This document shows positions 1,789-25,786 of a stretch of DNA of 34,400 nucleotides, one piece after another. The stretch is taken from assembly GCA_022791995.1 (NCBI GenBank), contig JAAWAD010000092.1:1-34400 (forward strand). Reading direction: 5' to 3'. The translations under genes and the position numbers were made by a program. Position 1 is the stretch's first letter. Every line of letters begins with the position of its first letter. The DNA comes from Lawsonibacter sp. Lineage in GTDB: Bacteria > Bacillota > Clostridia > Oscillospirales > Oscillospiraceae. The notes below the pieces were generated by a model. It was not told where the DNA came from. It saw only the letters and a program-made list of their open reading frames with translations, and made no database searches.

Positions 1789-1811
1789 AAAAAGCCGCCC
1801 TCGCGGGCGGC
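1789..1811 (-). terminator. Intrinsic terminator reading leftward
   Basis: On the minus strand GCCGCCC, loop GCGA, GGGCGGC is followed by TTTTT. It would stop transcripts coming from the right, such as the antisense RNA proposed to start near 2095, before they reach the promoter of the EF-G-like gene. Confidence 0.7.
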
Positions 1812-1816
1812 AGAAA

Positions 1817-1846
1817 TTGACAAAAAGCGGCGTGCTGTGGTAGAAT
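1817..1846 (+). promoter_or_regulatory. Sigma-A type promoter for the small peptide mRNA
   Basis: TTGACA (1817-1822), 18 bp, then TAGAAT (1841-1846). Transcription would start near 1853, exactly where the 11-base GGCGCTGTTAC begins, which has a perfect inverted copy at 2080-2090. Confidence 0.65.
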
Positions 1847-1879
1847 CAAACTGGCGCTGTTACATAAAAGGCGGTTGGC

Positions 1880-1920
1880 CCACCGTTACGACCCCTGGCA
1901 AATTTCCACGGGGGAGGTGG
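1880..1920 (+). promoter_or_regulatory. Hairpin enclosing the ribosome site of the small peptide
   Basis: CCACC (1880-1884) can pair with GGTGG (1916-1920), and CCCCTGG (1892-1898) with CCA plus GGGG (1906-1913, one bulged C). The Shine-Dalgarno GGAGG at 1913-1917, eight bases before the ATG at 1926, is inside this stem. Sequestration of the ribosome site is inferred from base pairing only. Confidence 0.5.
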
Positions 1921-1925
1921 TGCTT

Positions 1926-2021
1926 ATGGGATCATGGCATAGGAAGAAATTTCTGTGCCGAATCGTGAGCTGGAGCCTTGTCCTTTGGCTGTTCCTCCTC
2001 ACGGCCCCAAAAGCGTGCTAG
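1926..2021 (+). CDS. Small hydrophobic peptide, candidate type I toxin (31 aa)
   Basis: The reading frame encodes 31 residues: a short basic start (MGSWHRKKFLCR), one hydrophobic stretch rich in Leu, Val and Trp (about residues 13-26, SWSLVLWLFLL) and a short tail TAPKAC. A good Shine-Dalgarno lies eight bases before the ATG. Size, charge and single membrane span resemble the membrane-active peptides of type I toxin-antitoxin units (TxpA, BsrG, Fst, Hok classes), but I recognise no specific family. The context supports it: own promoter, hidden ribosome site, strong hairpin over the stop codon and a consensus promoter facing it from the 3' side. Toxicity is inference. Alternatives are a regulatory leader peptide or a chance frame inside a non-coding RNA. 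Confidence 0.5.
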   Translation: MGSWHRKKFLCRIVSWSLVLWLFLLTAPKAC

Positions 2022-2095
2022 CCGCTCGGTCCCAACCCGAACGGCTAGCGTTTATTAGCTGACTTCTGGGCCGACCGTCGTAACAGCGCCCTTCA
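2009..2095 (-). ncRNA. Candidate antisense RNA opposite the peptide 3' end
   Basis: A consensus promoter at 2130-2102 predicts an RNA starting near 2095 and reading leftward. It would cover the 3' region and stop codon of the small peptide mRNA. The hairpin 2049-2017 followed by ACGCTTTT (T run to 2009) could end it at about 87 nt. If it reads through, the terminator at 1811-1789 would give about 305 nt and cover the whole peptide gene. Existence and ends are predictions. Confidence 0.45.
2017..2049. terminator. Strong hairpin, probable two-way terminator
   Basis: GCTAGCCG (2017-2024) pairs with CGGCTAGC (2042-2049). An inner stem TCGG/CCGA (2026-2029, 2037-2040) leaves a seven-base loop. 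It is followed by GTTTATT on the plus strand and by ACGCTTTT on the minus strand, so it may end both the peptide mRNA and the antisense RNA. It overlaps the stop codon of the peptide (2019-2021). Confidence 0.55.
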
Positions 2096-2101
2096 TCTGT
2101 T

Positions 2102-2130
2102 ATTATAATGTCCCCCCCTTGTTTTGTCAA
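2102..2130 (-). promoter_or_regulatory. Perfect consensus sigma-A promoter, antisense to the peptide mRNA
   Basis: On the minus strand TTGACA (2130-2125), exactly 17 bp, TATAAT (2107-2102). No protein gene follows before the EF-G-like gene, whose own promoter and an upstream terminator lie in between. The promoter is therefore best explained by a non-coding RNA. Confidence 0.7.
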
Positions 2131-2187
2131 CCGACGAAAATGAGGGGGATTTTTCCCGGAGGAATACAAAAGGGATGTGGGAGAAAG

Positions 2188-11044: not shown

Positions 11045-11545
11045 ATGAGCAAGTGGGTGGAACACAGAGTATTTGTTCCCGCCAGCCAGACGCCGGACCC
11101 GATTCCCGAGGGCATTGCGGCAAAATATTATGTGTGCTGGCCCGGGAGTTTTCATGAGATCACCCCGGACAATGTCAAACGGATTATGAAAAACCTGCGC
11201 AGCGGAGAATGGATGGACATCTACCTGTACCACGAGGCGGATGAGGAGGGGGACTACCTGGACCTGGAGACCGACGGGACCCTGTACGACCTGAGCTATG
11301 GGGAGAACATGGGAGAAATCTGGTGGTCCACCTATGACCCGGAGTACCTGGACTCCGATGTGGAGACCGACATCATCCACTCCGACGGCCAGTCCATCAT
11401 CTATCGGGAGACCACCACTACCGACAAGGAGGCGGTGATGACCGCCATCGAGTACTTCATCCACACAGGAAAGCTGTGGAACGGCATCCCCTGGATGAAG
11501 CGCTGGCAGGAGCTGGAGAGCGAGAAAGGGGAACGCGCAGAATGA
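11045..11545 (+). CDS. Hypothetical protein, first of a tandem pair (weakly Imm1-like)
   Basis: A soluble acidic protein of 166 residues without signal or membrane span. It starts 17 bases after prmC with AGGAGG. Its C-terminal third (DSDVETDI, SDGQSIIYR, KEAVMTAIEYFIHTG, NGIPWMK) is almost the same as in the next gene, while the N-terminal two thirds have diverged. The ending, a helix with AIEYF-x-TG followed by a short strand with PW, reminds me of Imm1-type immunity proteins, but this is a weak resemblance and no toxin gene is near. Its stop overlaps the start of the next gene (ATGA), so the two are translated together. Confidence 0.7.
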   Translation: MSKWVEHRVFVPASQTPDPIPEGIAAKYYVCWPGSFHEITPDNVKRIMKNLRSGEWMDIYLYHEADEEGDYLDLETDGTLYDLSYGENMGEIWWSTYDPEYLDSDVETDIIHSDGQSIIYRETTTTDKEAVMTAIEYFIHTGKLWNGIPWMKRWQELESEKGERAE

Positions 11546-12048
11546 GCCATTGTACCGAACACCGGGAATTTATCCCCAGGAGCGACACCCCGGCGGCAAT
11601 GCCCAAGGGAATCGCGGTACACTATTATCAGCGCTGGCCCAGCAAGCCCCAGGAGATCACCGCAGACAGCCTGCGTCGGGTGATGAAAAACCTGTGGGAG
11701 GGCAAGTGGGAGAACCTCTTCCTCACCAACGACACAACCTTCGAGCAGAACTTTATGCAGCTGGAGAGCGGCGGCGGCCTGTATGCCCTCCAGTTTGTCC
11801 GGGACAACACCGGCGGAAGCGGGGAGGAGTCCGCCTGGTTCTCGGTCTATGACCCGGAGCACCTGGACTCCGACGTGGAGACCGACATCGAATGCTCCGA
11901 CGGCCAGTCCATCATTTATCGGGGGGACGTCACCAACGACAAAGAGGCGGTGATGACCGCCATAGAGTACTTTATCCGTACCGGGGAGCTGTGGAACGGC
12001 ATCCCCTGGATGAAGTCCTGGCAGGAGTGGGACTGGTCGGAGAAATAG
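11542..12048 (+). CDS. Hypothetical protein, second of a tandem pair (weakly Imm1-like)
   Basis: 168 residues, paralogous to the gene before it. The start at 11542 forms an ATGA overlap with the upstream stop and matches the N-terminus of the first copy (MSKWVEHRVF versus MSHCTEHREF). The segment from YDPE-x-LDSDVETD to the end is nearly identical. The middle (about 60-105) differs in length and sequence, which suggests duplication followed by selective divergence of one surface, or gene conversion of the 3' part. Its end overlaps the palindrome in front of recA. Function unknown. Confidence 0.7.
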   Translation: MSHCTEHREFIPRSDTPAAMPKGIAVHYYQRWPSKPQEITADSLRRVMKNLWEGKWENLFLTNDTTFEQNFMQLESGGGLYALQFVRDNTGGSGEESAWFSVYDPEHLDSDVETDIECSDGQSIIYRGDVTNDKEAVMTAIEYFIRTGELWNGIPWMKSWQEWDWSEK

Positions 12049-25619: not shown

Positions 25620-25662
25620 CGCAACGCAATGGGCGCAGGCATACCAATCCTGCGTTCACACG

Positions 25663-25768
25663 ATCTTCTCCTATCAGACTATACTGTCGGCCCCGGAATT
25701 TCACCGAGTCGTGCCTTGCGGCTTATGGGCTTTACCACCGGTGGGGAATTGCACCCCGCCCCGAAGAT
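25663..25768 (-). promoter_or_regulatory. FMN riboswitch (RFN element)
   Basis: The aptamer reads on the minus strand from ATCTTCGGGG (25768) to GAGAAGAT (25663). It has the hallmarks CGGGGTGCAATTCCCCACCG, GGTGGTAAAGCCC, CCGACAGT and GATAGGAGAAGAT in order. FMN binding should stop transcription of ribD-ribE-ribBA-ribH. Confidence 0.95.
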
Positions 25769-25786
25769 CCTGATTCAATTTGTACC

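Follow-up and report, generated by a model that had tools for sequence, protein, structure and literature searches.

The 34,400-nucleotide stretch of Lawsonibacter sp. DNA analysed here (the window) raises the question of what is encoded by a module at positions 1789-2154, lying in the gap between two ordinary genes that were recognised by eye as encoding an EF-G-like protein and a response regulator. A sequence-only reading had seen in it a candidate type I toxin-antitoxin unit. Systems of this type are hard to find, because their toxins are too short to be annotated and their antitoxins are RNA, and a 2019 review (PMC6563280) describes those experimentally validated in Clostridia as restricted to C. 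difficile. The module is, with high probability, such a unit, and it would define an undescribed family from gut bacteria of the Oscillospiraceae and their relatives. Its parts are collected in Table 1.

Table 1 Features of the module, numbered from the first nucleotide of the window
Feature	Position	Strand	Basis or value
Sense (peptide mRNA) promoter TTGACA-18-TAGAAT, TG ahead of -10	1817..1846	+	11/12 consensus
Antisense promoter TTGACA-17-TATAAT	2102..2130	-	12/12 consensus; predicted start near 2095
Antisense RNA terminator, stem 1811-1794 then TTTTT	1789..1811	-	-15.8 kcal/mol
Sense RNA terminator, stem 2114-2148, T-run 2150-2154	2114..2154	+	-19.2 kcal/mol
Predicted antisense RNA, complementary to mRNA 5′ end through ~2095	1789..2095	-	Inferred from promoter and terminator
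Shine-Dalgarno tract GGGGGAGGTGG	1910..1920	+	Sequence, fold prediction
Hairpin over first part of Shine-Dalgarno tract (1892-1897 with 1909-1914)	1892..1914	+	Fold
ORF, 31-residue peptide ending KAC, stop TAG, MGSWHRKKFLCRIVSWSLVLWLFLLTAPKAC	1926..2021	+	Frame
Start codon region, predicted pairing with 2006-2014 near ORF end	1922..1930	+	RNAalifold consensus stem
Hairpin containing stop codon (2017-2024 with 2042-2049)	2017..2049	+	Fold, covariation
5′ arm A of end-to-end pairing (with 2080-2090)	1853..1863	+	Fold, covariation test
5′ arm B of end-to-end pairing (with 2067-2079)	1870..1882	+	Fold, covariation test
3′ arm B of end-to-end pairing	2067..2079	+	Fold, covariation test
3′ arm A of end-to-end pairing	2080..2090	+	Fold, covariation test

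Both facing promoters, the leftward terminator, the 31-residue ORF, the ribosome site within a hairpin and the stem at the stop codon were found where the sequence-only reading had placed them. The arms of its 5′-3′ fold-back also pair as described, the count of 21 pairs having to be corrected to 24, i.e. 11 pairs (1853-1863 with 2080-2090) and 13 pairs (1870-1882 with 2067-2079) with one 6-base bulge. The rightward terminator, the stem linking start codon and ORF end, and the existence of a multicopy family had gone unreported. Four promoter-like sites are present in 801 bases, compared with 0.5 expected from shuffles, and the -35 box of the antisense promoter lies inside the stem of the sense terminator. 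Since a promoter and a terminator exist for each of the two RNAs, these would overlap over ~240 bases, with predicted starts near 1853 (sense) and 2095 (antisense). The peptide, with 15-residue hydropathy windows of up to 2.16, has the size (usually <60 residues) and the membrane segment by which type I toxins are judged. As for the rest of the window, an ordinary FMN riboswitch (25659-25772, minus strand) precedes riboflavin-synthesis-like ORFs, and two neighbouring ORFs (11045-11545 and 11550-12048, plus strand) encoding similar proteins are positioned upstream of a RecA-like ORF, the ORFs having been compared and assigned by eye.

The module belongs to an unnamed dispersed multicopy family. 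When 60 genomes were searched at the DNA level, 13 gave matches, among them the window's own genome, with a single copy, and genome G046, the 21-base match of which is probably due to chance; up to 10 matching pieces occurred per genome, some of them in tandem. The exact pattern of the 5′ arm was present in 28 stretches of named genomes, the titles of which include Oscillospiraceae, Lawsonibacter, Colidextribacter, Pseudoflavonifractor and Oscillibacter, with Pseudoflavonifractor sp. 60 and Colidextribacter sp. OB.20 as cultured carriers, as well as in 15 stretches on 10 contigs of IMG/VR. The 74 loci yielded 46 full copies that are distinct from one another, besides 17 partial copies. With strong and weak hits counted alike and the window's own included, a covariance model of the module's 3′ half, designated R1, matched 109 of 400 genomes from the taxonomic family, spread over 48 of 106 genera. 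It also matched 32 of 391 genomes in a sample of the class, where the matches listed, except that of the window, reach ~30-45 bits; in these two samples, as in the 250 family genomes used for the model R2 described below, few candidates were scored per genome. A deeper R1 search of 11 genomes found matches in seven and none in four. The single-contig genome G007 has 17 R1 matches, the window's own genome four. At the level of the order, a profile of the peptide had matches in 17 of 394 genomes, several matches being weak and at least one falling within a 394-residue frame.

Concerning the surroundings of the copies, two of the ten IMG/VR contigs were checked, and both carry tail tape measure genes, one of them together with an endolysin and the other with an integrase. 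Modules close to phage tail genes were observed in L068 (603-1015) and L070 (5029-5496), and tandem modules in L190, L191, L006 and L196, the last having three units with a spacing of 379, of which the second and third encode identical peptides. A blastn comparison with annotated phage and plasmid collections gave no match. Within 1.5 kb of the response regulator, a module was found in none of 29 relatives; the EF-G gene is absent from this interval in all 29, so that no empty site could be read. Around the other copies, the neighbouring genes were recorded simply as ORFs.

The predicted mRNA folds with a minimum free energy of -121.9 kcal/mol (z = -8.1), a stability equalled by none of 200 shuffles. 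So stable and closed a fold would suit a structured non-coding RNA, or a pair of such RNAs, in which the ORF occurs by chance, and as Rfam gave no match above a gathering cut-off—just three sub-threshold ones far below the cut-offs—this could be an undescribed RNA class. The copies, however, speak for a coding function. Of the 46 distinct full copies, 45 have an intact frame, a Shine-Dalgarno tract is found just 5′ of the ORF, and gaps in the coding part of the 32-copy alignment measure 9 or 3 bases, save for a single base added to the start codon of L007. In 13 disjoint copy pairs (coding lengths 93 and 84, the first and last three codons excluded), 48.8 synonymous differences at 247 sites (pS 0.198) are accompanied by 44.2 non-synonymous ones at 743 sites (pN 0.059), i.e. 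pN/pS in the peptide frame is ~0.30. The corresponding pS/pN values are 0.106/0.081 and 0.061/0.109 in the other sense frames, and 0.116/0.089, 0.179/0.074 and 0.058/0.099 in the antisense frames, the middle one of which is a milder form of the synonymous bias of the peptide frame. When all 60 overlapping pairs are pooled, the ratio is weaker (0.41) and some pairs are without synonymous excess. The peptide is protein-coding and under selection, as befits a type I toxin, and an RNA with a merely accidental ORF is extremely unlikely.

The peptides of the family have 27-33 residues with a basic start, a hydrophobic middle and, mostly, the ending KAC or NAC. They form two subtypes, MG...APKAC, mostly of 31 residues, and MW...IKAC or INAC, of 28 residues; a TTG start, a GTG start and a KAR ending occur once each. 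The situation named beforehand as contrary to the toxin reading, a broken frame with the RNA structure kept, was seen in a single full copy of the 46, namely L011, where ATG is directly followed by TAG; partial copies exist, too.

The pairing itself has been retained while the letters changed. In 32 copies, 94.1% of all cells are paired, as against 24-48% in slid controls. In closing helix 1, 90.8% of cells are paired and 5 of the 11 pairs show two-sided changes; in helix 2, 93.2% are paired and all changes are one-sided; the stop-codon hairpin is paired in 100% of cells, with two-sided changes in 4 of 8 pairs, so that TAG and TGA stops alternate with matching partners. The paired cells, the cells with a two-sided change (47 compared with 15.2 after shuffling) and the covariation score (0.232 compared with 0.170, reached by 0 of 500) each exceed all 500 shuffles. 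The number of pairs with a two-sided change, nine, was reached by 6 of 500 shuffles, and the further pair types (25) show no excess over the shuffles (27.6). RNAalifold adds the Shine-Dalgarno hairpin and the stem joining the start codon with the ORF end; covariation in the latter tracks the split into the two peptide subtypes and may therefore reflect one event. In L042, L046 and L062, a second purine-rich hairpin further upstream resembles the Shine-Dalgarno hairpin and could be a standby site for the ribosome or a decoy.

It should be pointed out that removal of the 3′ end did not open the ribosome site in thermodynamic folding of the window mRNA: the predicted unpaired probability is 0.37 at full length and 0.31 after a cut at 2060 for the Shine-Dalgarno tract, and 0.16 and 0.17, respectively, for the start codon region. 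Activation by 3′ trimming in the manner of hok or AapA is thus unsupported, and the fact that predicted access is not raised by the cut speaks against a simple release by trimming. As the site stays closed in the trimmed form, the inertness of the mRNA through 5′-3′ pairing, suggested by the sequence-only reading, is still hypothetical.

The loci L001-L129 yield 86 full copies, and in 74 of these the antisense promoter matches the consensus perfectly; it has one mismatch in 10, two in one and three in one, and the sense promoter has none in 20, one in 41, two in 15, three in 4 and four to five in 6. At most three mismatches are thus found in 86/86 antisense and 80/86 sense promoters, a level reached by single-base shuffles in 18% and 14%, respectively; the profile used to find the copies includes the promoter columns and so favours copies with conserved promoters. 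Sense terminators were detected in 53 of 86 copies (11 in shuffles) and not found in 33, antisense terminators in 33 of 72 (4 in shuffles) and not found in 39. The gene for the antisense RNA, predicted from the DNA, has a consensus promoter conserved in the family and a terminator in the window.

A MITE-like or other mobile repeat, with the inverted ends as transposon ends and the ORF incidental, would likewise be dispersed, multicopy and bounded by inverted ends, and would leave truncated copies. It would hardly preserve the frame in 45 of 46 copies, and here the ends vary from copy to copy yet remain paired, the promoters and terminators lie outside them, and the copies are divergent, those of L003, L005, L008, L009 and L035, from different genomes, having a common right flank. 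This origin is, therefore, very unlikely.

The weaker R1 matches turned out to share the layout of the module while encoding other peptides, so that the toxin seems to be exchangeable. Three of them belong to the window's own genome, with the peptides MSTSEVLQLCLVIIGVCSLFIQSKKK (L187), MSTSEVLQLCLVIIGICSLFIQSKKK (L189) and the 20-residue MPVTVTFHVFGLTVTIRIKR (L188). The 17 matches of G007 comprise six intact modules of the KAC type, seven Hol_Tox-like ones with three different peptides, one of the 20-residue type and three truncated ones (L201, L203 and L204). The truncated copies keep the ORF end, the stop-codon hairpin and the antisense side, and could be remnants or else antidotes without a toxin. 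The 20-residue peptide, MPVTVTFHVFG[LF]TVTIRIKR, occurs in the same layout in L188 (395-454, plus strand) and L193 (reverse complement, 483-542); it looks strand-like rather than helical by eye, matches Bac_small_YrzI at sub-threshold level only (E = 0.02 and 0.038) and is a possible third kind of toxin. In the loci L167, L169, L172, L177, L178, L182 and L184, from other families of the class, the same layout carries peptides ending with KAM, KAQ, KAI or KVK.

A scanner free of R1, requiring a short ORF with a ribosome site, a stem of at least 7 pairs at the stop codon and an antisense promoter whose boxes each have no more than one mismatch, accepts 18 of 24 class-sample loci; its yield from 140,577 control bases is the module and one other place. 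L163, L164, L171, L174, L179 and L185 failed and were counted as misses; similar layouts were observed by eye in L174 and L185. Among the loci from the two genomes above, L188, L189, L201 and L204 failed a first scanner and L203 passed only by way of another ORF, L188 and L189 having been read by eye. A second model, R2, built from 13 Hol_Tox-like scaffolds alone, matches all 26 KAC loci tested, a part of the set, with 31 matches at E-values from 5e-10 to 0.042; at a threshold of E = 0.1, the window module is all that it matches in the 140,577 control bases, and it matches 86 of 250 genomes of the family. R1 and R2 share no sequence, but the R2 scaffolds were found via R1, so that the choice of loci is not independent.

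With regard to known families, the KAC peptides have none in Pfam, NCBIfam, PHROGs or the PDB, and they, the window peptide included, do not match Hol_Tox (PF16935) or PepG1. No name for the KAC family emerged from the titles and abstract openings listed from the open-licence PMC literature, nor was any paper on Lawsonibacter toxin-antitoxin systems found there. Of ten Hol_Tox-like scaffold peptides, six match Hol_Tox in Pfam with E-values from 1.2e-4 to 0.3 and four do not, none passing the cut-off of 23.3 bits; the best is L195 from genome G017 (E = 1.2e-4, 22.2 bits), for which NCBIfam also gives a weak match with PepG1, a type I toxin (E = 0.0097), and L187 from the window's own genome matches at E = 0.3. 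Homology with Hok, suggested by the pattern VCLxxLL...KxxC in some members, was rejected, 0 of 34 members matching PF01848 and hhalign giving a probability of 0.1% with a three-row profile.

A conserved and coding peptide that resembles no known toxin family might also be a small regulatory or signalling membrane peptide, modulating a membrane protein or being exported, with the antisense RNA only setting its level; a constant partner gene would be possible, the neighbours of the copies having been read as ORFs only. Such a role is nevertheless considered unlikely, since genomes hold several paralogues, of which some are in tandem and some lie on phage contigs, and since the same scaffold is used for peptides weakly similar to Hol_Tox and PepG1. 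The window peptide is best read as an unrecorded toxin, ending with KAC, on a scaffold that would carry other toxins as well.

A more far-reaching reading, held tentatively and at somewhat less than even chances, is that the scaffold—paired ends, stop-codon hairpin, consensus antisense promoter and overlapping sense terminator—may be an exchange platform spread across the class, on which unrelated peptides are swapped, at least the KAC and Hol_Tox-like types and perhaps also the 20-residue, KAx and YAS types. Copies of the 3′ half with the antisense promoter could then be antidotes, and as the pairing arms diverge between copies, each antisense RNA would serve its own mRNA only. In 24 of the 41 modules analysed (L165 and L198 being one module counted twice), the end-to-end pairing is better than that of any of 100 shuffles, i.e. 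in 7 of 9 of the KAC type, the two failing ones having clipped 5′ windows, 13 of 16 of the Hol_Tox-like type, 4 of 8 of the class-level KAx type and 0 of 8 of the remaining types, and this last figure lowered the estimate for the platform.

The type I reading is thus supported by coding conservation, covarying RNA, near-invariant convergent promoters and a scaffold in common with Hol_Tox-resembling peptides. On this reading, the weaker promoter would deliver an mRNA for a membrane peptide of 27-33 residues and the stronger facing promoter an antisense RNA spanning nearly the whole of it. The mRNA, folded end to end with the Shine-Dalgarno tract and the start codon in stems, would be translated poorly by itself and, by analogy with known systems, pairing with the antisense RNA would lead to its degradation. 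Should the antisense RNA be lost, e.g. together with a prophage or gene region, the longer-lived mRNA could yield a membrane-damaging peptide. Transcription, pairing in the cell, RNA lifetimes, antisense action, toxicity and a role in DNA maintenance are what we infer from this arrangement. The family would extend type I units, often several of them, to many gut commensals as well as to some phages of these bacteria, and the common scaffold offers a searchable RNA model for toxins of any sequence; if toxins are exchanged under one scaffold, the separate evolution of antisense specificity and toxin identity becomes testable.

Comparison with known systems places the family as follows. The hok/Sok system has an mRNA closed end to end, a membrane peptide and antisense control, and the mid and terminal cysteines of some members recall Hok; the two differ in that no profile similarity is found. 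Hol_Tox is related to toxins of the TxpA/BsrG type, and Hol_Tox-like peptides are carried by this scaffold, in the window's own genome as elsewhere, whereas the window peptide has neither a Hol_Tox match nor a lysine tail. Several type I units of B. subtilis are located in prophages, according to the review cited above, which also describes CD2517.1-RCd8 and related pairs of C. difficile, in which toxin and antisense genes converge and overlap, with several pairs to a genome and many of them in prophages (PMC6563280). The layout and prophage location of the latter resemble those of the window family, but their toxins have 34-59 residues and charged C-termini, in contrast to the 27-33 residues and the mostly KAC or NAC ending found here. 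The aapA/IsoA systems of Helicobacter pylori, as described in PMC6733600, are multicopy and chromosomal, with a short peptide, an overlapping antisense RNA, a 5′-3′ long-distance interaction and Shine-Dalgarno hairpins. The window family parallels these features by sequence and prediction, with a putative antisense RNA and with paired mRNA ends that covary in helix 1; the differences are the other phylum and the predicted 3′ trimming, which in the window module leaves the ribosome site closed. With its 5′-3′ interaction and several copies, the window family would work most like aapA/IsoA.
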